Assembly: GCA_017503865.1 (NCBI GenBank)
Contig: JAFVSI010000035.1
Coordinates: forward strand, 1-43,229
Origin: Clostridia bacterium
Lineage (GTDB): Bacteria > Bacillota > Clostridia > Oscillospirales > CAG-272
DNA: 43,229 nt
Reading direction: 5' to 3'
Below the pieces are notes generated by a model, which was not told where the DNA came from, searched no databases, and saw nothing but the letters and a program-made list of their open reading frames with translations. Position 1 is the first letter of the stretch. The number at the start of each line of letters is the position of its first letter. Both the position numbers and the translations under genes were made by a program. Shown one piece after another: positions 18,015 to 39,900 of the stretch.

Positions 18015-18020
18015 AAAATA

Positions 18021-18925: not shown

Positions 18926-18961
18926 ATTATTATCCTCATTTCTGTCAAATAAACTCTTACG

Positions 18962-18992
18962 AATGCTCATCAAAGTCGCTTTGGTGGGCATT
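18962..18992. repeat. Long inverted repeat upstream of lipoprotein gene
   Basis: The 14-base arms (18962-18975 and 18979-18992) pair in the plus-strand sense, with two G-U wobbles and a 3-base loop. On the minus strand those positions become two C-A mismatches. It lies between the terminator of the secreted-protein gene and the lipoprotein start, so it could be a regulatory element or a remnant of an inserted repeat. I see no gene it belongs to. Confidence 0.4.
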
Positions 18993-19715: not shown

Positions 19716-20219
19716 TTAGTTTACGACTATAACACGAACAGGAATTTCGGTATTTACTACCGCTTTTTCGTTTGTTTCAGCGTTATAGAATTCTACTAAA
19801 ATTTTTCCTTCACGAGCACCAAGATCTTTTATGGTTCTCGTGCCTACTTCATTAAGAGTAAGCGTTGTGATTTGGTTGCCGGGCTGAATAACACCCGATT
19901 CAGCAACCCTGAATCCATCAACATAAAGTACAATGGATAAGTTATCTACTGAGCGGCTTGGATTAGCAAAGAACAATCCCACAGAGCCGCTTCCAATAGA
20001 TACTGTAACATCGGTTTGATAAGTAAGACCTACCGCTCCGCCTCCCTCATTTTTGTCGAGCTTTCCTTCATCTGTCTCAACAAAGGTCTCGGCATTGGAG
20101 TCTTCGGGTGGCTCGGGGTAGTCGGGGGAAGGTTTCTTCCCCCACTTACAACCCGTTAGCATCAGTGCCGCAAGTAAGATTGATGTAATCGTTATTATTA
20201 GCTTTGATTTTCTCATCAT
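19716..20219 (-). CDS. Lipoprotein, first copy downstream of the giant protein
   Basis: This 167-residue protein has a lipobox signal (LLAALMLTGCKW; modified Cys about residue 24). A Pro/Asp/Glu-rich linker follows, and then a domain of about 100 residues with alternating strands (QTDVTVSIGSGSVGLFF, SIVLYVDGFRVAESGVIQPG, ILVEFYNAETNEKAV). It is a paralogue of the lipoprotein at 18446-18925. It begins only 9 bases after the stop of the 4460-residue giant, with AAGGAG before the ATG, so the two are co-transcribed. Its membrane-anchored, surface-facing position fits a partner for a secreted protein that has no anchor of its own. This role is inference. A second ATG three bases in is equally possible as start. 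Confidence 0.78.
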   Translation of the reverse strand: MMRKSKLIITITSILLAALMLTGCKWGKKPSPDYPEPPEDSNAETFVETDEGKLDKNEGGGAVGLTYQTDVTVSIGSGSVGLFFANPSRSVDNLSIVLYVDGFRVAESGVIQPGNQITTLTLNEVGTRTIKDLGAREGKILVEFYNAETNEKAVVNTEIPVRVIVVN

Positions 20220-20228
20220 TTTTTCTCC

Positions 20229-23200
20229 TTATTCGGCATCTTCTGCCTTTGTAATAGTAATTGTTACTGTTCCTACAGAGAGGTTTTCACCCTTCTGAGG
20301 AATAGCCTTTCTTATAAGCTCAAGAGTGATATTCTCAGTCTCTTCAGCTACGACCTCAACCGTGCCGTTTGCATCAACGCCTGTGAACGAGCCGCCTATA
20401 ATGTCTGCAAATGCGTCTTCAGAAACGTAAATAAACGTTACGTTTACGTTTACTGTTCCCGAGTTATAAATCGTGATAACGTTTGCATCTGCCTCTGCGG
20501 GCTGCCACTCACCTATGTTGTACTCAAGGTCCTCGGGGTTCCACATACAGTTGGTGTAAATGAAGCTCATCGTTCCCCAAGTAATATCAATGCTTACGTA
20601 CTCGAGAGTCATAAGAGCAGTTGTTCCGTCCGCAAACTTGAAGACGTAAATTCCGCTATCATTGATAGTGTAGAGACAAGCTGCTGTACCTATCTCGGTA
20701 ACGTCCGTAAAGATCGTTGTTCCATCACTCTTATAAGCAGGCTCGTCTGCGTCATCGTAAAGGTCTTCGAAGAGGTGATACTTATCAAGCTTAGGAAGTG
20801 TTACGGTTACAACCGAATCACAGTGGCTACAAGTCTTGGTTGCCGAGCCCTCAGCATCAGCTGTGGGAAGCGTGTTAATAGTCCACTTCGACCAAGTATG
20901 AGGTCCGCTGAGCTCTTCGAGCATTCCTACGTAGGTCTCAACGAGAAGCTCTGCCGTTCCTGCTCTGAAGTAGGAGTTGTTTGCATCGTATCCACCGTAG
21001 TAGACCTTACCCTGATACGAAGGCATGTAAGCATAGTCTCCGTCGGCGTTAGTGATAACGAGTGTCATCTTGTAAGGCGAAGCTTCCTTGATCTGCATTC
21101 CGTTAGTATCAAACATCTCGTAAGGAACTACTACCATACCAAGATCACCGATTCCAACAGCCATAACACGAAGTGTTCTTGCATCAGACACGTTTCTTGC
21201 AACAATGGACCTGTCGATCTTACTCGGTTCTTGTCCTGCAGCTACTGCCGCATCTATACGAGCCTGAGCTGCTGCAACTTCCTCATCTGTTTCGTTCTGC
21301 TGTCTTACCGTGATAGTCTTCTTTATCATCGATATCTTGCCGGACTCAATCTGTGTAAGTCCCTCATTCAAAACGCGGAGCGTCTCGGTAGCAAGAGCAT
21401 GTGCTACTCTCTCATAGAAAAGGTCACCGCTAGCCTGAGCGCCTGAACCGTACGTATCCACTGTACTGTTAGGAGCACAGAGATTGAGGTTACCCGAAGC
21501 ACCTGCAATGAAAATCACCTGTGTATCGGTATCGCCTTTCTCAATATCCTTTCTCATATAGTTAGCTATATCAGAAGAGATAAGTTCGGGATAATCGTTA
21601 ACAGCACTTGCAAGGTGTCCCTGCCAGTTAGTAGCTACGATGTCCTTCTTGTCTGCACGTACGAAGCGTACTATCTGCACTGTATCGTCTGCTTCACTAA
21701 CTGTTGTAGTGGTGGGATCGTTGTACTGGTCAATTGTAGGCCATACGTGATCCTCAGAAGCGAATACAAACTCGCCGTTTTCGTCGATATTGACGTATCT
21801 ACGTACCCAAGCCATTCCGGTCGTCTTACCCTCACCGATGTAAATATCGGTTTCAGAAAGATCTGAGATAGCCTCTGCTGCCGCATTTGCTATGTTTGCA
21901 AATGCCTCGCTACGCCATTGGGCACTCTTTGAGAAGCTTACGGAAGAGTGTGCGTGAGTTGCTGCGATAATGATATTATCCTTAGGAACTCCCGTTACTG
22001 CATTTATGTTACGTCTCATTCTGTCGCACATGGTTTCGGAGATACTTCCAATATCTATCGAGATAAGAAGAAGTGTTGTTTCTCCGTCATACATAGCTGC
22101 AACGGTTGCATAAATGTCATCAACGTATCCGTCGTCATCTATATGAACGCCGGTCTTACCGTCTATCGGGAAATAACCGTAAGGAGTAATAACTACTCTT
22201 GAGTAACCCATTTCGAAGGTATCGACAATCATCGGTATCTCCTCATAGGTCGTGTATCCACAAACGCTACAAGCTACGTACTTCTTCCAACCCGCAGCGG
22301 AGTTAGTAGGAGCTTTCGCTTCATAGGTTGTGAGTGTGTGTCCGTCGGGACAGTCATCGTGAGGCTGATAACGGTTTGCAACCTCAATTACAGTTCCCTC
22401 TTCTCCAAATACCACGAGGTCGAAGAGCCAATCACGATTAGAAGTTTCGGGAAGTCCGTATTCGGTAAACTGTCCCTTCTTATCGCTGATATTGTTTCTA
22501 CCGAGCCATCTGAAGTACTGAGTTATATCTTGATCTTCTCTGTAACCGTTTGCATTCATTCCGATCCACATAGCATTTGAAAGCTCTGTGTAATCAGTTG
22601 TGTAAACGTCGTTCATCATGTCGATTATATCCTGTTTCGACATCTTGAACTCGATGTAAAGCTCCCAGTCACCGTCAAAGCAATTCTGGTTGCCGTTTTC
22701 TGAGAAGAAGTCACCGGCATCGAAGAACTCACCTGTTGTGACGTTCTTTCTTCTTATCTTTGCTTCACTAATAAGGTCATACGTTGCAAGATCAGCAACC
22801 TTAGAACCATTGTCATAAGCACCGAGATTGACCCAAGCTGAGTCGGTTGCACCACCTGCAAAATAGAAGTATCTCGTTACGTTATTAAGGTCAAATCCGA
22901 AATAGAAGGCGTAATTGCTTCTATAGATCTGACTTACACCGTCAACAAGTGCAGGTGCAGGGTCCTTAATAGCAACATAAATGTTATCTGCATCGTACGA
23001 GAAGTAATACTGCATATTCTCGGAAGCGAGAGTATTATCAACCTCACCGGTTTCCCACTTGTCTCCGTAGCTTGTATTAGTTGTGGGAAGTGCGGGAGTA
23101 ACTACTATTGCCTCGCCGTACTCACCGTCACTAATTGCACCGTCAATAGTGGGTGTGTTTCCGGATATGTCTGTTGCGTAATAGCTGTTAGTTCCGTAAG

Positions 23201-26200
23201 GAGCTGTCCAAGATACTCTTGTCTTTCCGCAAAGATCACAAGTGTCATCGTCACCGTATTCGTGAACAAGATAGATTGTGGTCTTACATCTTACGCAATA
23301 TCTATCCTCTGCTGCGTCTACGCAGTAAGTTGTAAGTGTTTCGCCCTGTGCGTTTTGGTGTCCGAGTGCTGTTCCCTCTACAAGGTCACAGCCTGCGCAA
23401 TGTCTCGGCTCGGTGCAGGATGCCTCGATCATGATGTGCTCGTGTCCTGCATATGCGGGGCCGTAAACTACTGCAACCGCCTCGTGTGCCGCTGCCTGAA
23501 GAATTGCCATCTCAGCCTCGGTGAACATATAAACGGTTCCGGTACTATCGGTCTTCGACTGGTTGATGTACGAAGGCTTATAGGGGTTACCCGTACAATC
23601 TTCACCGAACAGAGTCTCAAACCATACGCAAGCATTGAGGTACTGACCGCCACCGATATCACCGTCGTGGTAATAGTCACCTCTGTTGCCGTTTGTGCCT
23701 ATTCTTGCACAAAGGTCATCGACCATTCCTGCCGCCTCAAGCTTTGCTCTTGCTATTACCCAAGCATCGCCTGAAGGAACCATATTTACATTGTTATCTT
23801 TTACGATAACGCTTGAAACACTCTTGATAGTGTTATACATTGTAGCCTGCTGCTCAAGAGTCGATACCTGCTCCGAAGGAACTGTAACGCCCTTTTCGTA
23901 ATATCCCTCTGTACCGAATCCTACCTGATAAGGCCACGTCTCGTGCCAGTAAAGCTCTGCCGTAGGATGATTATCCTTAGCATAATCGAAGAGCTGCTTT
24001 GCATACCAACGAGTCTTGTCAAGTGCAACGTCAGCATTCTCGGAAAGTGTGGGGTAGAAGTGCTGCTGGAAGGAGATAACATCCCAATCCTCGCCCCAAA
24101 CTTCCTTAGCATATGCGAGAGCACCCTTGATGGTCTTAACGCTTGTGATCTTCTTGCGTCCGGCTGCATTCGTTACGTACAACTCGTATGCCTCGGAGTC
24201 GTCGTTGAGCCACGTCCAGTGGTCACGGACGGGACAACCAGATTCATAAAGGTTTACTACGTTAATTTCGTATCCTGCCGCACTTGCAAGTCCGTAAAGC
24301 TCCTCAACAAAGTAGTTGGAGAAGGAGTTACCGATCATAAGAATGTTGACCGCCTCAGTAGGCTTATCGTAATAAGCTCCATTATCAGCATCACCGCATA
24401 CAGCACATACTCTCGGAGTCTGATAGTTATTATCATCATCTACCCAGGTATGCTCGAGCTTGGGTACTGTAAACGTTGTTGTGTGAAGCTCTCCGCAAGT
24501 ACAACTGAAGTAATACTCGCCTGCTTGCTTACAGGTAGCTGCGGTTTTCTCTGCTCCCTCTGCGTAAACGTCTTCACAATCGTAAAGGATGTTTCCGTTT
24601 GTGTCAACCTTAAATACGCTTGTACTGGGGGCACCGCATACAGAACAGCTGTGGAGATAATACTTAACACCGTCGATCGTGTTAATTAAATACTTCTCAT
24701 CCTGTACGTGTTCAGAATAGTCACACTCGGGATGGTCGTATCCGTTGTTACCAAATACTACAGTATCGGGAAGGAGCTGTGATACGCCGTACTTAGCTGC
24801 CTGCTCCTCGGAAATCATCGTTCCGTAGAAGGCCTTCCAAGTAACACTTGCCGAAACTCTGTAGAAATTGGAAGTTGAAATATAGAATGTGTTGAAATCA
24901 GCATCGGTAAGAGTTACACCGAAGTTTTCCTGCCAGAACTCCTTGATAACTTCCTTATCAAAGGCAAGTTTCTTGATTCTGTGTGTTGTATTTGATGAAG
25001 GACCGCCTACAACGAAATCGTAGTAGGGGCTTACACTATTGTATCCGGTCCACAACGAGGTATAACCCGTTGCTGTTGCAAATCCAACCTCGGATTCCTG
25101 ACCTGGTTCGTCAAGTCCGTGATGCTGAAGCTTAATAACCATCTGCTGCGTATGATCGGCAGGGTTAAATCCGAGTCTGTAATACTCGGGAGAGTCACTT
25201 GTCCATACGGACGTGCTTCCCTCTATAGCCTCTTCACTCGGCTGATATAGCATATCAAACGCCAAGTAGAGTCTGCTCTCACTTCTTGCAACGTAGTACT
25301 TGTAGTGAGGAGTTATAGGCTCATAGGCAGAATCAACTACTGTATAACCCGTAACGTTGGTTTGTCCTGCGTGATATTGATTAACTATCGTAGGCTCAAG
25401 CTCGGTGGGAGTCAAGCAAGACCAAACGCCTTCCTCAAGCTCCTGCCATCTGACACCGCCCAATTTGACCTGGTCATTATCCATATGGATATCAGCATCG
25501 TTGATGTATTCCTCACTTGCGAAGAATACTCTCTGACCAAAGTAAGCGGGATTCTCTGCAGTTGCGGGCCAACGCTTGGGAGGTAAGGTATTCGCCTCAA
25601 GTCCCGAATATCCGCATTCGCTACATACCGCATAAGCATTCCAACCTATTCCGATACAGGTAGGCTCCTTGGCGGGTACTGTCGTACGCTTACCCGAAGC
25701 CTCGACTACTGCTATGTGAGCCTCCTTCGAGCCTGCTTCCTCAAATACCTTTTCGCCCGTCTTGCCCTCGGAACTTACGTGACATACCGAACACTGTGCG
25801 AAATATTTTGCATTAGAGCCACAGGTTGCGGCACTCTTTTGATACTCCATTGAAGTAACATCGTCAAACTTATGACCCAAAGGCTCTGCTGTGTAGGTAG
25901 ACTCATTGGGATCAAGCTCTCCGCAAGAGCATCCGAAGTATGCTTCACCGCTTCCCTCACAAGTGGGAGCAGTCTTAATAGCACCCTCGAAGTTTACGTT
26001 CTTGACGTCGTAAATGATATTACCCTCTGCGTCAACGTAGAAGATGGAAGAATTAGCTCTGCCGCATCCTCTGTCCTCGCTTTCGGGAGTATCCTTGATA
26101 CTACAGCTATGGTAGTAAGCTGTAATACCGGTCTCTTCGTCGGTTGCTATCTTATATTTATCGTCTATAACGTGTGTGAAGTTACATCCTATCGCACTGT

Positions 26201-29200
26201 CATCACCGAATACTACGATACCGGGAAGAAGGTTGAGGTTAGACGCATAGTTGCAAACCTCATTTTCTCCAAAGTACGCAGTACCGTTCCAGAGCATATG
26301 GATATGTCTTGTGCTGTAAGAACCGGCAGCGGCACCGCTACTCTTCTGAATATCGGTAGTAGTGGAAACTGCGAATCCAAGCACGTCGGAAAGTCCGTCT
26401 ACGTTTGTTCCTATAATACTTGCAAGCTGTGCCTTGTTAATTACAAGCTCGACAGTCGTTGCTGCGGATTCAAGTGTCCAACCGTTCGGGTGCTTGATAA
26501 CTCCCGTTTCCTTCGTGTAGTTCTCAAAGCTCGTATCGCCGTCTACGTTCTGAACTCTCTTTGCCGCATAAGCTGCATCAAAGATAGCGTTATATCTACC
26601 GACTCTTCCGTTTGCATCAACGAAGGACGACCAGTTATCTCTCGTTCCCGCCTGCTGTGCCCAGTCGTTTCCGATAGATCCGTCGGTAATGTTCTTAACG
26701 TCCATTACCTTGCCGTTAGCCCACTTATCAGCCTCGCCCGTAGTAATATTCGTACCAAGCTGCATCTGTGAGATGACGCCGATAGTCTTCTGGTTAGCAA
26801 GACCGGGGTTAATCGTGAATACGTACTGGAAGAGTGGACGCTGGTTGTTATACTCAGCAGACTCACCCGAAATGTGCTCAACAGCGATATAGAAGTGTTC
26901 CTCATCCTGTGCGAAGGAGTATCTTACCTTCTCCATATCAGCTATTTCCTTTGCAACTGCATCAAAGGAGTTATAATCAACCTCGGTAGCAGAAGCAGAG
27001 TTGTAGAGGTGATTGCGGAGGAATGCTGCGGGAGCATCTATAACGTAGCTTACGCTATACTCTCCTGCCGACACCTTTGCATCTGCGGGATTAGGAGTAG
27101 CGTTTACGTTTGCAGCAGTAACGTGTATAGGCTGACCTGCTGCGAGATAAGAAGAAAGCTTAGGCGTTCCGCTTGTACTTACTTGTATTGCGGGAATCTT
27201 ATTGTCCTCAAGAGTTGAGAATCCGCACTCACAAACGGTGTAAGGATTCCAACCGAATGCCACACAGGTAGGAGCCTTGTAGCCGTACTCGGTCTTGTTT
27301 GCCGTCTGTCTGTGAATTTCGGACGAGCCAACATCTGTCCAGGTCAATTCCTCGTTGACGTAGCCGCAAATCGTACAGTACTGATTATACACCGCATCGG
27401 ACGTACAAGTTGCTTCCTTGCCATAAACAAGATTCTCGGGAATTGCCTCACCCTTGTAGTTGTGTTCAAGAGGTTGCTCAAACTTCTCGTCGGAAATAAA
27501 TCCACAAGGACAAGACTTGTAGTACTCAACCGTTTGTCCGCAGGTCTTGCCTTCCTGTCCGGGAACGAGAGTCTTCTCGTTTGCAACCGATTCATATATC
27601 ACGTTGCCCTCTGCGTCGGTCTTAAAGGTTCTTATACCCTTAGCCTCACACCAGATACAACTGTGATAGTAGGTATTCTCTTCTCCGTCAACGGGATAGT
27701 CAAGTGCGTGACTTGTAAAGCTACAGCCGTTTATGCACTTCTCTTCACCGAGAACAACAACGTCGGGAACATACTTATAAGGAAGTCCCTCGGGAGTAGA
27801 AGCGAAGAAACTACCGTAGAAAGGATAATAATAGGTAGCGGAGCTACCAACATACCTTGTGTTTATGTTAGAAACGCTTATAAACATTGTACTAAAATCA
27901 ATGTCGGTATTGGAATTTCCACCAAAGTAATTACTATCCTTATAAATCTGCTTTACAAGCTCCTTGTCAAAAGCAAGCTCTACGCAATTGACCCAAAGAG
28001 CCATCTTGGAGTCATTCTTATTGAATTCATTGCAGTTGTTCTCGCCTAAATAATTACCGTCCAAATCATAATGAACTCTCTTATAAGTAATAATATTCTT
28101 ATAAGTATCATTCTTCAAAGTGTTGTATTTTCCGTCTCCGTAAGGAGCAATATATAGATTAGGATATCCTGAAGCATCCACGGTACCAACAATTCTGATA
28201 TAGAGTGAACGATCATAATTATTAGGATCAAAACCAACGTTAATATTATAGTGGGTATTAACAATGGTCTCGCTATGCTCTGTCAACCCTTCTTCGCCAT
28301 CGAGCTCGTTGAAAGGAGCATAGTTCTCAAGAACGAGGTAAAATTTTTCATCATCCTCTGCTACATAATACTTATACTTTGAAGCATATTTCTCAGCTTC
28401 CTCAAGCTCATTAACGTCGGTTGTTGAAGGATCGTCTTCAAGAATAGAGCCTGCTTTACCGCTATAGAATCTAAACTCGGAGGCGAGCATTTTATCAACC
28501 TCAACAAAATCAGGAGTTATACAGTAGTAGGGCTCGTCATCACCCCTTCTACCGTCAATAGCCATAACGCCTTCAGTAGCATAATAATCAGCAGAGCCTG
28601 AAGTATAAGTATCCTGTCCATACGCACCGAGGTCGGTATGGTCAAGTCCCTTTGTACCCGAAGGCCAACGGAGAGGAGCTGTAGCAATAAAGGTTGCTTC
28701 GTTCTCTGCGTCACCCTTTGAGGAATTATCACATCTTGAGCAAACCTTGTAGTAGATATCGCCCACTACGCAGGTTGCCGCCTTTTTAAGATACTGCTCT
28801 TGTGCAAGCTCCTTGCTGTAATCGTGTCCAAGAGCAGGAGTATTGAAGGTTTCGTCGTTGGGATGAAGTGCTCCGCAAGTACAGTTCTTGATATATACAC
28901 CCTGGTCTGTACAAGTGGGATCGCTTATCTTTGCACCTTCAAGCTCGGTATTGTTAGCGGTGTAGTAAGAACCGTCAACTACCGTATATGTTATCGTTCC
29001 TGCATCTCCGCAAAGAGGACAGGAGTGATAATACGTATCGTCCGTACCGGGTACGAGATAGGTTTCGGTCGAAACGTGCTCCGTGTAATCACAGAACGTC
29101 TTCTCTGAACCAAATACGATAAGGTCGGGAAGTACGTTAGTAAGTCCGATTTCAGCACTCGAGCCGTTATTTATCACAGTTCCGTAGGTTGCATTCCACT

Positions 29201-32200
29201 GCGAACTACCACTGTCACCGTTATAAATATTAGAAACCGTTACGTATAGCGAATTGAAATCTTCTGCGGTAAGCGTTACACCAAACTTCTCGCTCCAGAG
29301 TGAACTTATTGCAGATACGTCAAACGAAAACTTTCTTATAGCGGCATTACTGGAGGTTCCATCGCCACCACGAACATATTCATAATACGGTGAATTACCG
29401 TTGAATCCGGAATAAATAGGTTCTGACGAAATCCAATCTTTTCCGGCTACCCAAACTTTTGCTGTTTGACCGGAAGCATCAAAGCCATTACTGTAAGACT
29501 GAACAACAAGCTGCTGCGTATAATCCTGACTATTGAAGCCGAATCTGTAAACCTGATAATTATATATAGCTGCGGTAGTCGCACCGTTTATTGCGGTATC
29601 TACCGTCTTGGGAAGATACTCAAATGCCACGTATATCGTTTGAGAATCTTCAGACTTTGCAACGTGATAGTTGAAATCGGGTGTAATTTTAACAAAATCA
29701 GAGTCAATCGCAGTAACTGCTTGACTTGAATTACCGTTAAATCGTGTGTTGGTAATTACCGGTGTAATTGCGGTAGGTGTTACTTTAACCCAACCGTCCT
29801 CAAGAGGCTGCCATCTTGAGCCCGAAGGAGGATTGGCACCATTCATATTGATTTGACCGTCACTAACAGTATAGCTGTCACCCGTATAGAATGTTCTCTG
29901 TCCGTGGTAAACGGGTTTAACCGCTCCCTCCGGCCAAAGCGTTGTGACAGTTGTAAAGAGTGCCTCGCCCTCTTGTCCCTTTGAGGATAGGTCACATCTC
30001 GAACAAATCTTGTAGTAAGCAGCGGGGGCTATACAAGTAGCCTCTCTGAACAAATACTGCTCTGCTGCAACCTTCTTTGTGAAATCGTGTCCGAGAATAC
30101 CGTGTTCAAAGGTATTTGTTCTATCGGGGTCGACATCACCGCAAGTACAGCTCTTTACGTAAACTCCGTCTGCTGTACAGGTAGGAGCTGTAATTTCAGC
30201 CCCCTCTGCCTCGGGGTTTTCTACAATATAGTAAGAACCGTCAACTACCTTAAAGGTTCTTGTTCCTGCGTCACCGCAAATGGGGCAGGAGTGATAATAT
30301 GTGTCGGTTGTACCTGCTACAAGGTATGTAGCGGTTGCAACGTGCTCTGTGTAATCACAGAAAGTCTTTTCCGAACCGAATACGATACGGTCGGGAATAA
30401 GCTGTGTAAGTCCTACTTCAGCACTATTACCATTAGGAAGAAGTGTTCCGTAGGTTGCATAGAACTGCTTTTCATCATCACTTACTGTACCGTTTTCACG
30501 GAAGTTATGCGAACCTGCAACGAAGAAGGAGTTGAAGTCTTCATCGGTAAGAGTTACACCGAACTGCTCAAGATAAAGCTCCTTCATATCCTCGATATTG
30601 AAAGCGTACTTTCTTATACGGTGGTTGGTAACCGCTTGATTATTACCTTGTCCGCAAATTGCGTAATCATAGTAGGGGCTGTCATAGTTGTATCCCGTCC
30701 ACAACTGTGTAGCACTGTCCACATCAGCAACGTAGAAAGTTCCTTTCTGGCTATCGTTACTAAGTCCGTGACCGCGTGTACGAAAAACTATCTGCTGGGT
30801 GTAGTCTTCAGGATTAAATCCAAGTCTGAAGTACTTGTAATAGTCACTCGTCCAAACGTTCTTTGTAGCATTGGTTCCAATACCATTTTCATCGGGATGA
30901 TAGATCATATCAAATACAATGTAAATTGTTGTATCAGACTTAGCTACGTAATAATCAAACGTAGGAGTTATGGGATACATTTCGAAATCTTCGGGTGAAG
31001 TAATGGTAACACCTGTCTGATTAAGTCCCTTATTGCTATAAAGCTTATTTGAAATAGTTGCCTTGATAGGCTCGGAATTAACCTTTACAAAGCCTTCCTC
31101 TATGGGTTCCCAAGCACCTGTAGCATTAAGCTTTATATCAGAGTCATTAACGGTATAATTATCACCTGTGTAGAAGGTTCTCTGTCCGTGGTATACGGGC
31201 TTTACTGCACCCTCAGGCCAAAGTGTCGAGGGAGTTGTAAAGGTATCCTCAGCGGTCGTTCCCTCAGTGGACTCACCGCAAACCTTACAGCTTACGTAGT
31301 AGATACCGCCTGCCATACAAGTCGGAGCCTTCTGCTCATACTTGTCAGCTACGACCTTTGCTGTAAAGTCGTGAGGCATTATATAATTAAAGGTATCCGC
31401 CTCGCTCTTAGAAACAATACCGCAAGAGCAGCTCTTATAGTATTTGCCCGCCGAAGTACATGTAGCTGCAACTATCTCGGTATCCTCTGAAACGATCTCC
31501 TTGTCGTAAACGAGAGCATCGTCTACTACCTTAAATGTAGCAGCACCTGCCATACCGCAGTGTGTACATGCATGGTAGTATGTATCGGTCGTGCCCTCAA
31601 CGAGGTATCTTGCCTCGGTGCTGTGTCCTGTAAAGCTACAAGAAGCAAATGCAAGGCCGCTCTTTTCATTACCGAATACGATTACGTCGGGGATAACATT
31701 GTTCTCGGAAGAAGCAACGCTTTCTGCGGTAAATACACCGTAAATCGGGTTACCGATTCTATCATTTGTTTCACTTGATGTTTCCGAATAGTCGTTGTCA
31801 CGACGTGCATAAAGTTGACAAGATACTGCAATGAACATTGTAGCTAAATCTTCGTCTGTAAGCGTTACTCCAAAATTTGTTGAGTAAACAGATTTAATAG
31901 CTTCCTTACTAAGCTTTATTTCAGAAACTCTTGACCAAGCCTGTGTTCTGGGCTCTGCGTAATTTGTATTTGCTCTTGCCCACGAAGTCATAACTCCGGC
32001 AGATGAAATATCGTACTTATTGTTGTTATCAGCTATCCAAGAAGCTGTGAACCACGATTGTGTATTGTTATCTATACATATCTGCTGTGTATAATCGTTG
32101 GGATTAAAGCCAAGTCTGTAGAACCAATAACCCCAATCGTTCATTGAATAGACCTTGCTTTCAGTTCCTGTTACGGTTATACCTTCAGCAATATAAGGAA

Positions 32201-33611
32201 CATCCTCTTTCACTACCAAATAAATGTGAGAATCGGACTGAGCTACATAGTAATTTATATCAGGAAGAAGTGCTGCATACGCATCCCAGTCGTTTCTTAT
32301 TTCAAGATTTGACTGTCCGTTCCAGCCCTTGTTACTGGTGTACTGCATGTAGGTGTGTGAAGGACCGTGGTCAACTGCATCGGGAGTTACCTTGACGTAC
32401 TCGTCATCAATAACACCGTCAGTAGCATCGATATCACCCTCATTTACTTTATAAGCCTTCAAGCCTGTTGAGTAAATATCCTGCTTGAGCTCTGTGAGCG
32501 AGGTGTCATGTGTGCTTGTAGCAAACTCGCCACCGAGGGGATTTTCCTCAACAACGGGAGCCTTGAATTCTACCGTATCAAAGTTGTACGCCTCAAGAGC
32601 GTGGGTCTTTGACGCAACGTCATCGTCAAAAGTACCGTTCCAGATTACCTGAGGACGATACTCCTCTCCTGTGGGAGAAAGTCCAAAGTAACTTCCAACT
32701 GCGAAAAGCATTGTATCAAGATTTTCAACTGTCTGATAACCCTCGGGAAGAGTATCGTTTTTGTGATTATAAAAATCAAGAAGCTTCTGCTTATCGAACT
32801 CTATTTCCCAATAGGTATATACCTGCTCGGCTGTTCGTCCGTGACCTGAGCCGAAATCAATAGACGATCCGTCTACCGTCTGTTTAGATACGATCATAGC
32901 ATCAACGGGATAAGTAGCCTCTGTAGATGAATTGTAAACAGTTCTGTCATAACCAGCCGAAAGCGTTGTCGTTCCAGTGTATGGGTCATTTGAGTACTCA
33001 GTAACGTCCCATGCAAACGAGCCGTTAGATCTAACCAATCCTCTACGAGATGCCGAAGACCACTGATAGGTATCGTACTTCGCCATTGCGTCATGTGCCG
33101 CCATCTTTGTAGAATCGTTTGCATCAACTGAAGGAGATGCTCCGGTTTCAAGCAAAGCAATACCGATATAGTTCTGAGGCTGAGCAGGATTGAATCCAAG
33201 CCTCAAAGTATAACCGTCGCGAAAAACGCCATTGCCGTCATCACCGGGAGTTCCCTTACCCAAAACACCTATGTATATTTTGGATTCGTCATGAGAAACG
33301 TTTATCGACACCTCATCGGCTACTCTGGTACTTTCAGAATAATCGTTAGAAAGTGCGTCAAAGGTAAAGCTTGACGAATATGCAACCGGATCTGTAAACT
33401 TAGTCGTAAACGTATACTCATCGGCTCCGATAGAACCGTCGGCTATTGCCGTCTTGTATCCGTTGACCGTGTAGGTCTTTGTACCGTCGGCATTAACGGT
33501 AGGAGTTGTTTGTGTCTGTTCTGACTCGACAGCAAAGATCTCTATGGGGGTCATAGGAAGCAACATTGCCATTACGAGCATTAAAGAAACTATTCGCAAA
33601 AATTTCTTCAT
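20229..33611 (-). CDS. Giant secreted multi-module protein (CBM9-like modules, CxxC ribbons, DUF4886, ceramidase-like domain)
   Basis: The 4460-residue protein starts with a signal peptide (residues 1-28, MKKFLRIVSLML). Eight CBM9-like beta-sandwich modules follow at about 44-350, 387-640, 807-1085, 1224-1500, 1646-1960, 2141-2470, 2681-2960 and 3474-3740. Most contain a Y-R-L-G-F-N-P-x-D-Y-T-Q-Q-like strand. They are separated by cysteine repeats of the types TYYHSCPICG, YYKSCSCG and YYKICSRCD, likely zinc or disulphide ribbons. Residues about 3088-3370 form a DUF4886 (SGNH-like) domain (NILMIGNSFSNYF, WDVISFQQHFY, ELYWHETWPY). Residues about 3794-4227 resemble the neutral ceramidase N-terminal domain (AATHAHSS, NWQGHLAS, GASGNLNL). 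The last 120 residues are a beta-rich module. There is no sortase motif or C-terminal helix. The RBS is AAAGGAGA. A role in glycan or lipid capture on the cell surface is inferred. Confidence 0.85.
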   Translation of the reverse strand: MKKFLRIVSLMLVMAMLLPMTPIEIFAVESEQTQTTPTVNADGTKTYTVNGYKTAIADGSIGADEYTFTTKFTDPVAYSSSFTFDALSNDYSESTRVADEVSINVSHDESKIYIGVLGKGTPGDDGNGVFRDGYTLRLGFNPAQPQNYIGIALLETGASPSVDANDSTKMAAHDAMAKYDTYQWSSASRRGLVRSNGSFAWDVTEYSNDPYTGTTTLSAGYDRTVYNSSTEATYPVDAMIVSKQTVDGSSIDFGSGHGRTAEQVYTYWEIEFDKQKLLDFYNHKNDTLPEGYQTVENLDTMLFAVGSYFGLSPTGEEYRPQVIWNGTFDDDVASKTHALEAYNFDTVEFKAPVVEENPLGGEFATSTHDTSLTELKQDIYSTGLKAYKVNEGDIDATDGVIDDEYVKVTPDAVDHGPSHTYMQYTSNKGWNGQSNLEIRNDWDAYAALLPDINYYVAQSDSHIYLVVKEDVPYIAEGITVTGTESKVYSMNDWGYWFYRLGFNPNDYTQQICIDNNTQSWFTASWIADNNNKYDISSAGVMTSWARANTNYAEPRTQAWSRVSEIKLSKEAIKSVYSTNFGVTLTDEDLATMFIAVSCQLYARRDNDYSETSSETNDRIGNPIYGVFTAESVASSENNVIPDVIVFGNEKSGLAFASCSFTGHSTEARYLVEGTTDTYYHACTHCGMAGAATFKVVDDALVYDKEIVSEDTEIVAATCTSAGKYYKSCSCGIVSKSEADTFNYIMPHDFTAKVVADKYEQKAPTCMAGGIYYVSCKVCGESTEGTTAEDTFTTPSTLWPEGAVKPVYHGQRTFYTGDNYTVNDSDIKLNATGAWEPIEEGFVKVNSEPIKATISNKLYSNKGLNQTGVTITSPEDFEMYPITPTFDYYVAKSDTTIYIVFDMIYHPDENGIGTNATKNVWTSDYYKYFRLGFNPEDYTQQIVFRTRGHGLSNDSQKGTFYVADVDSATQLWTGYNYDSPYYDYAICGQGNNQAVTNHRIRKYAFNIEDMKELYLEQFGVTLTDEDFNSFFVAGSHNFRENGTVSDDEKQFYATYGTLLPNGNSAEVGLTQLIPDRIVFGSEKTFCDYTEHVATATYLVAGTTDTYYHSCPICGDAGTRTFKVVDGSYYIVENPEAEGAEITAPTCTADGVYVKSCTCGDVDPDRTNTFEHGILGHDFTKKVAAEQYLFREATCIAPAAYYKICSRCDLSSKGQEGEALFTTVTTLWPEGAVKPVYHGQRTFYTGDSYTVSDGQINMNGANPPSGSRWQPLEDGWVKVTPTAITPVITNTRFNGNSSQAVTAIDSDFVKITPDFNYHVAKSEDSQTIYVAFEYLPKTVDTAINGATTAAIYNYQVYRFGFNSQDYTQQLVVQSYSNGFDASGQTAKVWVAGKDWISSEPIYSGFNGNSPYYEYVRGGDGTSSNAAIRKFSFDVSAISSLWSEKFGVTLTAEDFNSLYVTVSNIYNGDSGSSQWNATYGTVINNGSSAEIGLTNVLPDLIVFGSEKTFCDYTEHVSTETYLVPGTDDTYYHSCPLCGDAGTITYTVVDGSYYTANNTELEGAKISDPTCTDQGVYIKNCTCGALHPNDETFNTPALGHDYSKELAQEQYLKKAATCVVGDIYYKVCSRCDNSSKGDAENEATFIATAPLRWPSGTKGLDHTDLGAYGQDTYTSGSADYYATEGVMAIDGRRGDDEPYYCITPDFVEVDKMLASEFRFYSGKAGSILEDDPSTTDVNELEEAEKYASKYKYYVAEDDEKFYLVLENYAPFNELDGEEGLTEHSETIVNTHYNINVGFDPNNYDRSLYIRIVGTVDASGYPNLYIAPYGDGKYNTLKNDTYKNIITYKRVHYDLDGNYLGENNCNEFNKNDSKMALWVNCVELAFDKELVKQIYKDSNYFGGNSNTDIDFSTMFISVSNINTRYVGSSATYYYPFYGSFFASTPEGLPYKYVPDVVVLGEEKCINGCSFTSHALDYPVDGEENTYYHSCIWCEAKGIRTFKTDAEGNVIYESVANEKTLVPGQEGKTCGQTVEYYKSCPCGFISDEKFEQPLEHNYKGEAIPENLVYGKEATCTSDAVYNQYCTICGYVNEELTWTDVGSSEIHRQTANKTEYGYKAPTCVAFGWNPYTVCECGFSTLEDNKIPAIQVSTSGTPKLSSYLAAGQPIHVTAANVNATPNPADAKVSAGEYSVSYVIDAPAAFLRNHLYNSASATEVDYNSFDAVAKEIADMEKVRYSFAQDEEHFYIAVEHISGESAEYNNQRPLFQYVFTINPGLANQKTIGVISQMQLGTNITTGEADKWANGKVMDVKNITDGSIGNDWAQQAGTRDNWSSFVDANGRVGRYNAIFDAAYAAKRVQNVDGDTSFENYTKETGVIKHPNGWTLESAATTVELVINKAQLASIIGTNVDGLSDVLGFAVSTTTDIQKSSGAAAGSYSTRHIHMLWNGTAYFGENEVCNYASNLNLLPGIVVFGDDSAIGCNFTHVIDDKYKIATDEETGITAYYHSCSIKDTPESEDRGCGRANSSIFYVDAEGNIIYDVKNVNFEGAIKTAPTCEGSGEAYFGCSCGELDPNESTYTAEPLGHKFDDVTSMEYQKSAATCGSNAKYFAQCSVCHVSSEGKTGEKVFEEAGSKEAHIAVVEASGKRTTVPAKEPTCIGIGWNAYAVCSECGYSGLEANTLPPKRWPATAENPAYFGQRVFFASEEYINDADIHMDNDQVKLGGVRWQELEEGVWSCLTPTELEPTIVNQYHAGQTNVTGYTVVDSAYEPITPHYKYYVARSESRLYLAFDMLYQPSEEAIEGSTSVWTSDSPEYYRLGFNPADHTQQMVIKLQHHGLDEPGQESEVGFATATGYTSLWTGYNSVSPYYDFVVGGPSSNTTHRIKKLAFDKEVIKEFWQENFGVTLTDADFNTFYISTSNFYRVSASVTWKAFYGTMISEEQAAKYGVSQLLPDTVVFGNNGYDHPECDYSEHVQDEKYLINTIDGVKYYLHSCSVCGAPSTSVFKVDTNGNILYDCEDVYAEGAEKTAATCKQAGEYYFSCTCGELHTTTFTVPKLEHTWVDDDNNYQTPRVCAVCGDADNGAYYDKPTEAVNILMIGNSFSNYFVEELYGLASAAGYEINVVNLYESGCPVRDHWTWLNDDSEAYELYVTNAAGRKKITSVKTIKGALAYAKEVWGEDWDVISFQQHFYPTLSENADVALDKTRWYAKQLFDYAKDNHPTAELYWHETWPYQVGFGTEGYYEKGVTVPSEQVSTLEQQATMYNTIKSVSSVIVKDNNVNMVPSGDAWVIARAKLEAAGMVDDLCARIGTNGNRGDYYHDGDIGGGQYLNACVWFETLFGEDCTGNPYKPSYINQSKTDSTGTVYMFTEAEMAILQAAAHEAVAVVYGPAYAGHEHIMIEASCTEPRHCAGCDLVEGTALGHQNAQGETLTTYCVDAAEDRYCVRCKTTIYLVHEYGDDDTCDLCGKTRVSWTAPYGTNSYYATDISGNTPTIDGAISDGEYGEAIVVTPALPTTNTSYGDKWETGEVDNTLASENMQYYFSYDADNIYVAIKDPAPALVDGVSQIYRSNYAFYFGFDLNNVTRYFYFAGGATDSAWVNLGAYDNGSKVADLATYDLISEAKIRRKNVTTGEFFDAGDFFSENGNQNCFDGDWELYIEFKMSKQDIIDMMNDVYTTDYTELSNAMWIGMNANGYREDQDITQYFRWLGRNNISDKKGQFTEYGLPETSNRDWLFDLVVFGEEGTVIEVANRYQPHDDCPDGHTLTTYEAKAPTNSAAGWKKYVACSVCGYTTYEEIPMIVDTFEMGYSRVVITPYGYFPIDGKTGVHIDDDGYVDDIYATVAAMYDGETTLLLISIDIGSISETMCDRMRRNINAVTGVPKDNIIIAATHAHSSVSFSKSAQWRSEAFANIANAAAEAISDLSETDIYIGEGKTTGMAWVRRYVNIDENGEFVFASEDHVWPTIDQYNDPTTTTVSEADDTVQIVRFVRADKKDIVATNWQGHLASAVNDYPELISSDIANYMRKDIEKGDTDTQVIFIAGASGNLNLCAPNSTVDTYGSGAQASGDLFYERVAHALATETLRVLNEGLTQIESGKISMIKKTITVRQQNETDEEVAAAQARIDAAVAAGQEPSKIDRSIVARNVSDARTLRVMAVGIGDLGMVVVPYEMFDTNGMQIKEASPYKMTLVITNADGDYAYMPSYQGKVYYGGYDANNSYFRAGTAELLVETYVGMLEELSGPHTWSKWTINTLPTADAEGSATKTCSHCDSVVTVTLPKLDKYHLFEDLYDDADEPAYKSDGTTIFTDVTEIGTAACLYTINDSGIYVFKFADGTTALMTLEYVSIDITWGTMSFIYTNCMWNPEDLEYNIGEWQPAEADANVITIYNSGTVNVNVTFIYVSEDAFADIIGGSFTGVDANGTVEVVAEETENITLELIRKAIPQKGENLSVGTVTITITKAEDAE
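20232..20600 (-). repeat. C-terminal module DNA, near-identical to 33924-34293
   Basis: By eye this stretch differs from the end of the neighbouring giant gene at about 22 of 365 positions. The protein differs at about nine residues. Identity drops sharply just upstream of the VDITW strand. This marks the module as a recently copied or converted unit. Confidence 0.8.
20925..22230 (-). other. Ceramidase-like domain within the giant protein
   Basis: Residues about 3794-4227 begin at EMGYSRVVITP. They contain the first metal-type motif AATHAHSS (about 21945-21970), NWQGHLAS with a second conserved His (about 21605-21630) and GASGNLNL (about 21480-21505), in the order and spacing of the neutral/alkaline ceramidase N-terminal family (PF04734). 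That family uses zinc and a Ser nucleophile to cut amide bonds in ceramide. Activity on ceramide here is not shown, because many bacterial relatives have unknown substrates. Confidence 0.7.
23460..24350 (-). other. DUF4886 (SGNH-like) domain within the giant protein
   Basis: Residues about 3088-3370 start with VNILMIGNSFSNYF, which carries the Ser of an SGNH-type block I. WDVISFQQ follows as in DUF4886 proteins, then ELYWHETWPY and ASPV-type helices. DUF4886 is thought to be related to SGNH hydrolases/esterases. The domain lies between the seventh and eighth CBM9-like modules. The neighbouring giant has only about 60 residues at that position. Confidence 0.72.
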
Positions 33612-33874
33612 TTGATTTTCTCCTTTGATGAATTATTTTTTGCTTTGGCCGCTTTTTGGGTATATATACAATACCTAAGTATAAGAATGCGTATCCTAAT
33701 TTTAGCACTTTACTATGGCCAAAAACTGCCATTTTAGAATTATAGCTTGTAAACAAAAGCAACGCTCGACGAATTTTCACCCTTCAAATTGTGAAAAATG
33801 CACAAAAGCATAGACATATAAATGCTTTAAAGGCAGTATTTGTCTTGATTCTTAGTACACTTCAAGTCCTGATT
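33612..33874 (-). promoter_or_regulatory. Leader and promoter region of the 4460-residue giant
   Basis: This stretch separates the two giant genes and contains no gene. An AAAGGAGA ribosome binding site (about 33619-33626) precedes the ATG. On the minus strand a TATAAT lies at 33739-33744 but has no good -35 at 17 bases. A second candidate, TATACT, lies at about 33680-33690. A weak hairpin AAAGCAT/ATGCTTT (about 33804-33827) lies further upstream. A promoter is expected because a strong terminator ends the upstream gene, but I cannot assign it firmly. Confidence 0.35.
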
Positions 33875-33876
33875 TA

Positions 33877-33911
33877 AACAAGAAAAAAAGGCAGAGCCGA
33901 AGCTCTGCCTT
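33877..33911 (-). terminator. Terminator of the upstream giant gene
   Basis: On the minus strand a 10-bp GC-rich stem (33902-33911 with 33888-33897) with a C(TTCG)G loop is followed by TTTTTTTCTTG. It starts 10 bases after the stop codon. This is a textbook intrinsic terminator, so the two giant genes are not one transcription unit. Confidence 0.95.
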
Positions 33912-33920
33912 GATTTTTAT

Positions 33921-36900
33921 TTACTCGGCGTTTTCTGCCTTTGTAATAGTAATTGTTACTGTTCCTACAGAGAGGTTTTCACCCTTCTGAGGAATAGCCT
34001 TTCTTATAAGCTCAAGAGTGATATTCTCAGTCTCTTTTGCTACAACCTCAACCGTACCGTTTGCGTCAACGCCTGTGAACGAGCCTCCTATAACGTCTGC
34101 ATATGCGTCTTCAGCAACGTAAATAAACGTTACGTTTACGTTTACTGTTCCTGCGTTATCAATCGTGATAACGTTTGCATCTGCCTCTGCAGGCTGCCAC
34201 TCACCTATGTTATACTCAAGGTCCTCGGGGTTCCACATACAGTTGGTGTATACAAAACTCATCGTTCCCCAAGTAATATCAACGCTTACAAACTCGGTCG
34301 ATATCGAAACAGTTGTGCCGTCGATATACATATAAACGTAAACACCGCCAGATACTGTATACTTTCCTACCGTTGCAACGTCGGAAACGTTATCATTGGT
34401 AAGCGTAGGCAATTCCAATATCTCGATGCAACCCTTTGAGCAGCTTCTTGACGCCTTTCCTGTCGCCTCAGCGGTAGGTTCGGTTACAATCGTCCATGCC
34501 GACCAATCGTGTCCTCTGAAGTTTAAGAGCAAGCGGTTGTACTCTGCAACCATCTCTTCGGCAGAGCCGTCCTCGAAATAGGTAGCCATCGTCTCGTAAG
34601 GACGGTCTCTGTACCAATCGGGATTAGCCAACTCATCTGCCTCGCTCTCGGGGAATTTGAGGTCCTTAACAGGTACTATCTTGTCATCCGTCGAAAGAAG
34701 AGAAGGTAGATTAAACGCCTCAGTTGACGGCATATATGCAGCAGCACCACCCGAATTTGAGAACACCAAGGTCATCTCAAAATGAGATGCGTCCTTTATC
34801 TGCTTTCCGCTGTTATCAAATATCTCGTAAGGAACGTTGACGAGAGCAAGGTCTCCAAACGAAAGTGCAGAAATGTCGAGGGTTCGTTTTCCTTCGTTAT
34901 CTCGCTTGTTCTCATATCTCTTTTGGAGATAACCTGCCGCGTAGGTCGGAAATGCTTGACCTGCGTATTCAGGGTTAGCTTTTACGATGGCAGCATAGTT
35001 GTATGCCGCGTCACTTATTTCTTCTTTAACGTACAAGACGTATTCTTCTCTCTCGATATTTATTCTGCCCGAGTCTATAGTTCTGAAGTTATCAATGCCA
35101 AGCGTGAGCGTTGCAACAGCATGAGCTACGTTCTCGAAGAGTTTAAATTCGTCATTAAATCCGTATTTCTCAGCAGTTGCGGTCTTATCTGCACTGGTAG
35201 GAGCAGAGAGATTTACGTTACCTGAAGCACCTGCAAAATAAGCTACCTTTACGTCATCATCCTCAGCCTCAATGTCATCACGTATAATGCCTGCCATATC
35301 CGAGTGTATCATTTTGTCATACACGGTACCGGACGCCAAATGTGCCTGCCAGTTGATAAGAAGAATATCCTTGGCATCATCACGCACAAAGCGAACTGCC
35401 TGCAATACGTCATCAACGTCCCAAGCGGATGCTACCGAACCTCTATCGGTACCCGGACCATTAGATGCCACAAACTGACCTTTGTCGTTCACGAAATTAC
35501 GTACCCAAGCAAGACCTGTGGTCTTTGTAGTACCTACCTTTATCGTGGACTCCTTAAGATCGTCCATTGCTCTTAGTGCCGATTCCGCCATAGCGTGATA
35601 CGTTGTGAATCTCCACTTTGAATCTTCATTAAGATTGGGAACACTGTGGTTATGCGTAACGGCAATAATGATGTTATCAAGCGGAACGCCCGTAATCTTA
35701 CTTATGCGATTACGCAACGTAACGCAATACTCCTCGGCAAGTGAACCCAAATCAAGGGTGAACATAAGGATGGTCTTTTCACCATCGTTTACGGCAACGC
35801 AGGTTGAATAAATATCAGTGTGAACGCTGTCATAATCCAAGAATTTAGAGAGATCTGTAGGAGTTATTACTATTCTATCGTAACCTGTCTTGAAGGTTTC
35901 TGTAGCCTTCGGCAACTCAGAATATGTGGTATAACCGCAAGAGCACGATACGTACTCATTCCAACCCACAGCATCAAGTGTAGGAGCCTGAGCCTTATGA
36001 TAGCTCAGCTCCTTGCCGCATTCACAATAGCTTACAGCGGGGCAAGTTATTGTTGCGGTCTCTTCGTCAAATACCACAATGTCGTAGAAGCTTTCTCCCT
36101 GACCTATCCATCTAACGTACTGGGAATTGCCGGTAGTATCAATGTTGTTGTTGTATCCAAGTGTCGTAGCGGAGAACCACATTGCGTTGGAAAAATTGGA
36201 GTAATCCTTTCCGGTCTGTTCCTTGAGGATCTGCTTAAGAGTCTCCTTGCTTATTCTGAACTCAATGTCAGCAGCCCAAGCAACATCCGTTTGATCAATG
36301 TTTCCGTTTACAGAGCCAATATCACCATAGGCAAGGTAACTACTGCTATCGGTACTTCCCTTCTCGTACTTACGGAACACACCCTCATCTATGAGGTTAT
36401 AGGTCTTTAGATCTATAGTTTTTTTATTATATTTGAGAACGTTCCAACCTGCAGCATTACCATCGGTTCTGTATCCACCGAACGAGAAATAAACATCGGG
36501 ATTATCGGGATCAAATCCAAGCGTGAAATGATAATTATTTCTCATGGTAACTCCAACATCAGCATCCTTGTCCTTGCTCACGTCACGAACAGCTACGTAG
36601 ATGTAGTCATTATCGTACGCAAAGTAGTATTCCATGTATGCGGGAAGGAGCTTTTCTATAACGAATCTTGTCGAATCCGTTTCCGTATCTGCCCAAGCAT
36701 TCATGCTGCTATTCAGCATAAGACGGGGAGACGTTACCGTTATAGCTGTACCGTACTCATCAGTATCAATAACTCCGTCAAGAGTAGGAGTTGCACCGGA
36801 TACGTTTTCGGCATAATAGGTGTTTGAGTCTGCTTTGGTTGCACCATCCCAGTCAAACTTGTTGTCTTGGCAAACGGTACAAACGTCTGCTTCATAGGTG

Positions 36901-39900
36901 CAGGCAGCTTCCTCTACCTTATAAGTACAATTCTCTACCGTACAAACCTTATAGTGAGTGCCGTTTCTATTCGTCCAATTAGTATCGATAAAATGTGGAC
37001 CGTAATTTGCACTTACAAAGTATGCCTCTGCATCAATTGTTTCGTTTGCAATAGTGTTACAACGTGAACACTCAAGCCAGTACTCATTAAGTGTCTGACA
37101 GTTGACCGAACTCTTCACATGAGCCTCGTCCTCTACCCTTACGGTAAAGTCGTGGCCGAGAGCATCCACTGTAAACGTTGTTTCACCGGTATAATTGGTA
37201 TCATCCTTGGCGAGAACACCGCAAGTACAACTCTTATAGTACAATCCATCTTGTGTACAGCTAACTATTTGAGATTCAACTGCAAGCGAGTCAAGGATTA
37301 TATCTTGGTATTTTAAAGTTCCCTCTTCATCAGTTTTGAAGGTCTTCGTTCCCATCGCACCGCAATGCTCACAGCTGTGATAATATGTATCAGTTGTTCC
37401 CTTGACCTTGAATCTGTCGTCAACCTTATGGAAGGTATAAGAACAGGTATCACTTTCCTTATCGTCACCAAATACGATAACATCGGGAATCAAAGGACAC
37501 TTATTACCAAGATTGGTATTGTAATACGTACCATAGGTTACGTAGGTTGAGTAACCATTGGTATAAGAGAGACAAGAATGAGAAGCTGCAACGTAGAGAG
37601 TATTAGTAATATCGTTTACAGTAAAGTTACCGTAAATAGTATTCCAAGCATCGGCAAACTTCGCCTTGTCAATCTCAACTGTCATATAAGCCGAGAACTG
37701 TCCCCAAGAGTTGTGGTTTACAGGATTCATCAAATTGCCATCTGTAGTACCATCATAATGGTAGCTTGAGAAGTTAGAGTTAGTAATCCAATCTTGAGGA
37801 TAGGTATCGTCCACCTTCAACCAAGAGGTCGTACCACCCTTAACGAATCCTCCTATTTGAGCTTGTTCTGCACCTGCTTCCCACTTAACTATAGCGGTCT
37901 GTGAGAAATCTTCAGAATTCAATCCTATACGGAAGTAATAGTTAGCTCTCTGGAAGTAAACGTCTGTTCCTTCCTCTTGCCACTTGGAGCCAATCATTCT
38001 AAAGGTTATGTATATCTTGGAACTGTTTTGAGCTACATAATACTCAAGGTCAGGAGCCTTTGCAAGATCCGCATCGGTATAAGACGCAACGGGAGCATTG
38101 TTGTAATAGAGGTGATTTGATGTAGTAGTTTGTGCTGCACCGGCGTAATTTTGAGCCAAATACTTGTTTGTAGAAACTACTTTAGCACCAACACCTGCAA
38201 GTCCCTTTCCGTCTTTAGCACCGGTTTCTTCGTTTGAAACGATCCAACCGAGATCGTCCCAAGTGAAGTCATCAGGCAAGATACCGTCCTGACCTGTTAC
38301 AAGATACTCTTGTCCAAGGTAGGAAAGTGACGTGTAATCCATTGCGGGATATGTCGTACCCGAGGGCCAACGTGTTGCCGCATATTCCTCGTAGTCGGTA
38401 TGCTCACACTCCGCTACGTCACAGTTATCACTGTTATGCTTAACGTCACATCTGTCACAGTAGGTGTATGCGTTGTTACCGATTGCTATACAGGTTGCTG
38501 CTCTTGCCTGGGCATTCGTCCAATCGTGTCCAAGTTTAGACCCTTCATCAACCCAAGTTTCATCCGGCGAAGGCTCACCACAGTTTTGACAGTACTTTTT
38601 GTATACTGCATCCTCGGTACAGGTTGCTTCTGACACGGGAGTATCGTTTTTACCTTCAACGATAATGTTCTCCCAATTGTGAACAAGCTCCTCACTAAAG
38701 GTAACGTTAGAGATCGCTCCGCAATCTTCACAGCTCTTGTAGTACTCAACCGTAGAGCCGCAGGAAGCACCTTCCTGTCCGGGAAGAAGTGTATCAATAG
38801 ATTTTATATCACCGTAGCTCGAGTTAATGTCATAGACCTTTTCATCCGTGTCGGGATCCACGGTATAAGAAACCGTAAAGGTTCTTGCACCTACCGAGCC
38901 GCAAATGCTACAGCTATGATAGAAGTCCTCTGTTGTGCCTGTATCGGAATCCGGCACGGGATAAGTTGTATCATGAACTGTGAAATCACATCCGAGCTCC
39001 TTCTCGTCTCCGAGAACGATTACGTGAGGAATAAGACGTGTGGTTGCACCTTCGGGCATATCCTTGTCAGAAGGAACAATGTCGCCATATACAACTGAAT
39101 AAGTTCCTGTAGTACTATTGGTAATTTCGTCATCATTACTTGTATTGACAGTACCATCAGAAGCTACCGTTCCCCACATAAATGATGTGGACGCCGCAAA
39201 GAACATAGTGTTCGGGAAGGTTTCCTTGGTATAATTTGTACCGTTAAGTCCGTTGAATATATTGATTATAGCCTGCTTATCAAGCTCAAACTCAATGAAC
39301 TTACAGTACTGTGCTCCGTCTCTGTTCTGGTTACCACCCGATCCTGATCCTGTAGTTTTATCATTAGCAGCATCATAGCTGTAAGTGAGCATCTTTGTGC
39401 TACCAACAACATTAGCGGCATTTGCAGTATAGTAAACAGCCGTCTTATAACTTGTAGTTGCATCTTGCAAATCGGTCAATTCCACCGCAACATGCTCAAA
39501 ACCAGTTGCACCGTATCTGTAGTCGGTCGTGAGCAACAATGCCTGTGAATAGTCTTGAGGATTGAAGCCCAATCTCCAAGTGTAGTTGTGTCTACGTGAA
39601 CGATAAATCACATCATCCTTTGTATCATCGGGAGTATCGTTATCATCAACGTACTCTGCACCAATATCTCTTATAAGGAAATATATTTTATCGGCAGAAT
39701 ATGCAACATAATACTCCATATCGGAAACTATATCAACGTTTCCGCTTGTTGCACGAGCCGCATCGTCTGAAGTGTGTGTAGCATCATAGTAACGTCCGGC
39801 TGCAAGAACCTTTGGTACGCCGCCCTCTGCTGCCGTAGGTGTAACTCTAACATATCCGTCATCGATCTTGGCGTCAATGGATATGGTTTCACCCGTCTGA

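Follow-up and report, generated by a model that had tools for sequence, protein, structure and literature searches.

Gene order at the locus and its recurrence

The stretch of DNA analysed here (the window) is an entire contig, C85, of 43,229 nucleotides from a gut bacterium of the Clostridia, whose genome of 2.14 Mb in 90 contigs is estimated to be 95% complete. Its minus strand carries consecutive genes for two giant proteins that share a nearly identical C-terminal module, here called the tail, and, beyond them on the same strand, genes for three small proteins, A, M and C. The gene for giant 2 (33921..43229), recognised as an open frame truncated by the contig end, encodes at least 3102 residues of cargo and tail; that for giant 1 (20229..33611) encodes 4460 residues, with a signal-peptide-like N-terminus, a DUF4886 domain and a C-terminal tail. 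Each tail comprises the last 122 residues of its giant, at 20232..20597 in giant 1, where it was delimited by comparison of the two giants, and at 33924..34289 in giant 2, where it is additionally matched by the family profile. The gene for A (19716..20219; 167 residues) begins 9 bp past giant 1, and alignment, a structural model and Foldseek give it a lipobox-like N-terminus and one predicted beta-sandwich domain. The monomer M (19100..19651; 183 residues, or 197 if translation begins at the ATG at 19693) has, on the basis of homology and a model, a signal peptide, an N-terminal strand and a single tail-like domain. The alignment of C (18446..18991; 181 residues) reveals a hydrophobic, lipobox-like N-terminal part and homology to A. 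We consider it likely that the tail is a non-covalent docking domain belonging to a sortase-free cassette for surface assembly.

Judged by sequence comparison, the conserved unit is larger than tail and monomer alone, and consists of a tail-bearing giant, A, M and C, in that order. This order recurs twice more in the same genome, one of the giants being truncated there by the start of its contig. A scan with the C profile of a genome collection described as covering 84,980 species gave 83 relatives, of which the best 80 loci were kept; C is present in these by construction. Because the A and C profiles came to converge, the two labels were assigned by motif, in a few cases wrongly (TAMA, for example). 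Core frames were found at 78 of the 80 loci, and lie on a single strand in all 78. Where the first core frame begins more than 1.5 kb into the locus (45 loci), A, M and C occur together in 35 and a tail protein in 31; inspection by eye adds L174 as a thirty-second, the tail of its giant falling under the threshold. M genes may stand in series, up to four consecutively at L131 and L171 and five at L088 and L101. A second layout, seen at L085, L088, L092, L093, L095 and L101, places an A protein of about 500 residues, with an extra N-terminal region, ahead of the giant and several M genes behind it (at least three, for example at L088 and L101).

The cassette is patchily distributed and rare. 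Counting the genome under study, it occurs in 5 of 59 relatives. The family has 28 carriers among 295 genomes and the order 14 among 297, and a sample of 398 from the phylum gave 1, the genome itself. It was found in Clostridia and in one genome of Erysipelotrichaceae, and those titles among the C-profile relatives that name a group are, we take it, all of Bacillota. Cultured carriers include Ruminococcus bicirculans 80/3, Acetobacterium tundrae, Acetobacterium paludosum and Robinsoniella peoriensis, which makes the cassette open to experiment. A phage collection yielded a single unannotated contig with a 26% match, a scan of the four proteins against defence families gave no match, and no paper on this cassette was found in the open-access library searched. 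When 586 frames neighbouring the cassettes were clustered, five sets proved common to at least five loci; the largest (42 loci) consists of long proteins and the others (5–7 loci) resemble, on inspection, regulators and genes of ABC and transport type, so that no further conserved core-linked gene emerged.

The first-pass annotation of the window had proposed that genomes with the tail should also possess the free monomer, and this was borne out: of 18 genomes with a family match on a frame of at least 450 residues, 16 have a further match on a frame of at most 235 residues. This count used matches at E≤1e-5 and left out the weak cases G074, G098 and G325; with G074 and G325 admitted for their long frames, the count becomes 16 of 20. 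The two genomes with a tail and no small frame are G156, which is 66% complete, and G263. In G013, A, M and C stand without a neighbouring giant and three tail proteins are encoded elsewhere in the genome; in R. bicirculans the core lies at 1115 kb and other family members at about 720 and 1067 kb. With such members distant from the core, the tail seems to be portable as a module.

The tail module and its relation to the monomer

M had been noted as a small secreted protein with the strand order of the tails, and it is indeed their homologue. A window tail used as query matches the free monomer of its own genome (E 1.6e-4), and the monomer as query matches the tails of that genome (E 1e-4 to 2e-5). 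More decisively, independent profiles of 50 tails and of 99 monomers match each other over 124 columns at 99.9% probability (E 1.2e-35), a homology established by sequence profiles rather than by superposed models. In one of the C52 cassettes of the same genome, the giant's tail shares 53% identity with the free monomer of the window. The AlphaFold model of the window M (65 sequences, mean pLDDT 80) has CfaB pilins as its first three ranked structural matches, with FimG, PapG-pilin and a chain of the Caf1 complex among the first 50. A side observation is a 496-residue protein at L082 (10137-11627) with two tandem M domains, in which exchange of strands between adjacent domains could be examined in a natural protein. 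For the family as a whole, a tail was defined as a domain ending at most 30 residues before the stop codon with at least 130 residues ahead of it, which sets aside three proteins whose domain is internal and 18 whose domain is N-terminal. The latter arrangement, an M domain followed by a further C-terminal region, is seen at L081 (4566-5525), L080 (3-965), L084 (10301-11185), L087 (681-1601) and L142 (1927-2868), and the giants at L126 (3-7580) and L136 (3-7526) extend 137 and 152 residues, respectively, beyond their tail domains.

The two tails of the window differ at nine of 122 residues (93% identity) and 22 of 366 bases, as had been reported for them. Ten of the changed codons are synonymous and nine alter the amino acid (dS 0.18, dN 0.03), whereas directly upstream the giants are 42% identical in amino-acid sequence, with a saturated dS of 2.2 and a dN of 0.57 over 581 aligned codons. 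Comparison of the two genes by blastn returned six matches, one over the final 428 bp (90%) and five shorter ones (48–155 bp, 70–88%). The abrupt edge described earlier lies where it had been placed, at VS(I/V)DITW, the first strand of the module, and is preceded by about 60 bp of weaker similarity. The upstream domains had also been called ceramidase-like; their divergence is real, whereas that identity found no support, since at E 0.01 the only Pfam match is DUF4886, in giant 1, and giant 2 has none at all. Both giants also contain, within 20229-43229, many repeats of paired CxxC-type cysteine motifs, and these repeats have no Pfam match at that threshold. The plain reading of the near-identity of the tails is gene conversion or a recent exchange of the module, as far as can be judged from sequence.

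Such homogenisation, which had been proposed for the tails, is a feature of this pair and, less markedly, of the pair at L110 (73%), and does not extend to the nine other within-genome pairs examined (26–54%). Tails exceed the similarity of the preceding 250 residues in 10 of these 11 pairs, strongly so in the window and at L110. The idea of a tag for interaction or assembly thus keeps its central element, a shared module with a homologous monomer, and loses near-identity as a general rule; it is strengthened by the conserved gene set and by the absence of sortase and the pattern of N-terminal strands described below. In the sets used for strands and identities, 35 domains without the first-strand pattern were omitted, five of the 99 monomers were dropped from strand scoring and nine short tails were kept apart; the third giant of the genome (C52b) lies outside these sets and that of the tail pairs.

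On a tree of 173 domains, which offers few columns for that number of rows, the tails are clustered (19 changes, against a mean of 42 after shuffling), and one supported set of 40 rows unites 28 of the 48 tails with 10 monomers and two N-terminal forms. Many tails therefore look like an old specialised lineage and not like recent copies of the local monomer. Concerted evolution of each tail with its own monomer was considered and rejected, the best-matching monomer coming from the same locus for only one of 44 tails. Mean identity between tail and monomer is slightly higher within loci than between them (0.298 vs 0.273 for the 44 tails; label-shuffle p 0.0005, uncorrected for kinship), and the first aromatic residue (W or F) agrees between tail and monomer in 44 of 44 cases, an agreement confounded by kinship.

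Anchoring, the A and C proteins, and the N-terminal strand

Hydrophobic stretches are distributed unequally among the family members. All 98 monomers scored have one at the N-terminus and none at the C-terminus; the tail proteins have one at the N-terminus in 37 of 51 cases and at the C-terminus in one of 51, and an LPxTG-like motif occurs in two of the 51. No match to sortase (PF04203) was found in the genome at E 0.01, in a search whose controls gave matches in 3 of 14. With a C-terminal hydrophobic stretch in a single tail protein and no sortase match, most tail proteins appear to lack the usual kind of anchor. Hydrophobic stretches at the N-terminus are present in 83 of 88 C proteins; among A proteins of up to 330 residues, to which this count was confined, all 61 have such a stretch, within the first 60 residues in 47 and further in in 14. 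The cargo ahead of the tail is diverse: in ten proteins scanned with Pfam it includes CBM26, GLUG, InlB-type repeats, BspA-type leucine-rich repeats (LRR), ice-binding-like domains and DUF6273, in addition to the DUF4886 domain of giant 1 in the window. The ice-binding-like domain belongs to a tail protein of Acetobacterium tundrae (L166, 6093-7451), and one of equal length stands in the same place in A. paludosum (L169). Separately, four secreted-looking proteins of the genome under study (L020, 1582-2832, 2918-4135 and 4329-5546; L006, 4332-6155) share a similar C-terminal hydrophobic segment, preceded by a GCG-type motif and followed by a basic tail; this looks like another kind of surface anchor, and the genome has no match to sortase.

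The profiles of A and C match each other at 98.6% probability (E 5.4e-16), and neither is matched by the M profiles. The model of A (pLDDT 89.4), in which the final two strands span 13 and 15 residues, has the pilus chaperone PapD (3dpa) as its best match in Foldseek, at a weak E of 4.3e-4. Among the 50 rows listed, 27 are periplasmic pilus chaperones by manual count; they represent few proteins, listed redundantly, and some chains were assigned from title and length. The chaperones align through their domain 1, which amounts to a weak likeness of fold. A DUF1622 gene adjoins C downstream (18049-18420, same strand).

Searches against known families were otherwise unproductive. No usable match was found in Pfam for M, A or C (C being searched as a single sequence, not as a family), in NCBIfam for the proteins of the window together with 39 A proteins, or among PDB sequences for M and C; isolated weak Pfam and NCBIfam matches to core proteins, which lay below cut-offs or occurred in one member, were set aside. 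Pfam includes models for TasA/camelysin and for DUF4183 and DUF3992, the subunit families of endospore appendages (ENA); none of these was matched at E 0.01 by any of 65 M-family members. As a compact set that accompanies tail proteins, A, M and C may serve as a marker for discovering further adhesins.

In most monomers the signal peptide and the first strand of the domain are separated by a segment of alternating pattern such as IDVTATY. With random stretches of tail proteins as the control, its 95% level as threshold and the monomers cross-validated by locus, the N-terminal strand scores above the threshold in 60 of 94 monomers and 12 of 51 tails (Fisher 4e-6, uncorrected for kinship), and the tails as a group also slightly exceed the control (p 0.02). 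In the window, M has the segment IEVNATY (19520..19540, minus strand; residues 38-44), a candidate donor strand recognised as the N-terminal strand of the family; neither tail of the window has such a segment, and the C52a tail has one. In the model of M, strands begin at residue 37, and the segment (model residues 16-22) has no strand assignment and lies in blocks of mean pLDDT 71 and 64. A donor strand would be compatible with this, and a flexible linker would look the same. A donor strand supplied from within A was also considered and dropped, the best window lying there in just 8 of 63 cases.

Proposed modes of assembly and likeness to known systems

The docking reading draws together the homology of tail and monomer, the recurring gene set, the membrane-anchor-like stretches of A and C and the tail proteins without a C-terminal anchor. 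Large, secreted, adhesin-like giants would be retained on the cell non-covalently through the tail. In these Clostridia, where tail-bearing proteins reach 4460 residues and have no usual C-terminal anchor, three small families would then explain their retention. The best overall explanation, to which we would give an even chance, is that the tail docks the giants onto M and/or onto A and C, probably by strand complementation; an assembly based on strands and involving M is likewise about evenly balanced.

The pattern of strands and the predicted fold of A point towards donor-strand assembly by analogy with TasA/TapA and with chaperone–usher pili, with the giants at the tip. On such a scheme, M subunits would leave the cell by the Sec route and be held by A and C as membrane-anchored beta-sandwich proteins; each M would complete the domain of its neighbour with its free N-terminal strand, and a short fibre or stack would form. 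The giant's tail, as a strand acceptor that in most cassettes has no N-terminal strand to donate, would occupy the distal end and place the giant at the tip in the manner of FimH, a tip adhesin with a subunit-like domain at its C-terminus, much as the tails stand on the giants. At the membrane, A or C would begin or terminate the chain, in a role like that of TapA or PapD. Free monomers may polymerise with the tail or cap it, as the first-pass annotation had proposed.

A likeness to chaperone–usher pili may lie in the predicted fold of A, which weakly resembles domain 1 of the PapD/FimC chaperones, and in an N-terminal strand present on most monomers and absent from most tails. A, however, appears to be membrane-anchored and to have one chaperone-like domain, and the genome has no match to the usher (PF00577) at E 0.01, whereas the E. 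coli control has. It is tempting to suggest a monoderm counterpart of these pili without usher or sortase, in which M would be a donor-strand pilin, A and C membrane-anchored, single-domain PapD-like chaperones or anchors, and the giants, highly variable adhesins of up to 4460 residues, the tip, held through a pilin-like tail; in this complete form the proposal is tentative, and we would sooner expect it to fail than to hold. If the fibre reading is true, it would bring donor-strand assembly with chaperone-like membrane proteins to monoderms. The TasA/TapA fibres of Bacillus use an N-terminal donor strand in a Gram-positive and have an accessory protein encoded alongside (PMC9674648, PMC10151520). 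The N-terminal strand of M is a candidate donor of this kind and accessory genes adjoin here also; the present cassette differs in that no signal-peptidase set is found among the gene families common to at least five loci, and in possessing giant adhesins that end in a copy of the subunit.

The main rival to a fibre is a platform like that of the WxL proteins, in which tail and monomer would individually bind the wall and/or A and C and so display the giants, the strand of M binding A or C; we regard it as possible, with the balance tilted clearly against it. According to PMC10599100, WxL clusters encode a small one-domain protein and a large one in which binding domains precede a C-terminal domain of that type, together with WxLIP, a membrane-anchored partner with two Ig-like domains and a C-terminal helix. 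The cassette resembles these clusters in gene plan, one cluster here too holding a small, a large and a membrane-anchored Ig-like protein. Its families differ, however: A and C are two proteins, mostly of a single domain with the anchor ahead of it, in contrast to the two domains and C-terminal helix of WxLIP. Moreover, Pfam scans of 65 M-family members and 39 A proteins at E 0.01 gave no match to WxL (PF13731) or to the WxLIP families DUF916 and DUF3324, and in the genome no WxL match passed the cut-off (best E 0.04). Comparison of profiles was also negative, but weakly so, drawing on two rows for WxL and a single one for WxLIP; the Pfam scans carry more weight. Nor does a platform have any need of the arrays of four or five consecutive M genes.

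An anchor for an appendage of spore or cell, of the type found in F-ENA endospore appendages, would make the C-terminal copy on the giant a base on which M is stacked, and not a tip. There is a precedent, since PMC11952670 describes an F-Anchor protein in which a long stalk bears, at the C-terminus, a copy of the domain of the fibre subunit; here too a small subunit accompanies long proteins that bear its domain at the C-terminus. The passages concerned make no mention of proteins like A and C, whose membrane-anchor-like stretches relieve the giants of any need to form the base; with the ENA subunit families also unmatched in M, this explanation seems improbable. Least probable of all is that the near-identity reflects mere recombination between neighbouring C-terminal repeats with no dedicated partner for the tail, for which the adjacency of the two giant genes and the restriction of near-identity to the window pair, with L110 behind it, might speak, but which leaves unexplained both the recurrence of A, M and C beside tails and the absent anchors of the tail proteins.

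Two terminator-like hairpins found by consensus scans complete the features of the locus. One follows the 3' end of giant 2 on the minus strand (33888..33911; 3 sites in the stretch vs 0.5 expected); the other, which reads on both strands (18020..18048; 7 sites vs 2.6 expected), lies downstream of the whole set, with the DUF1622 gene between it and C.

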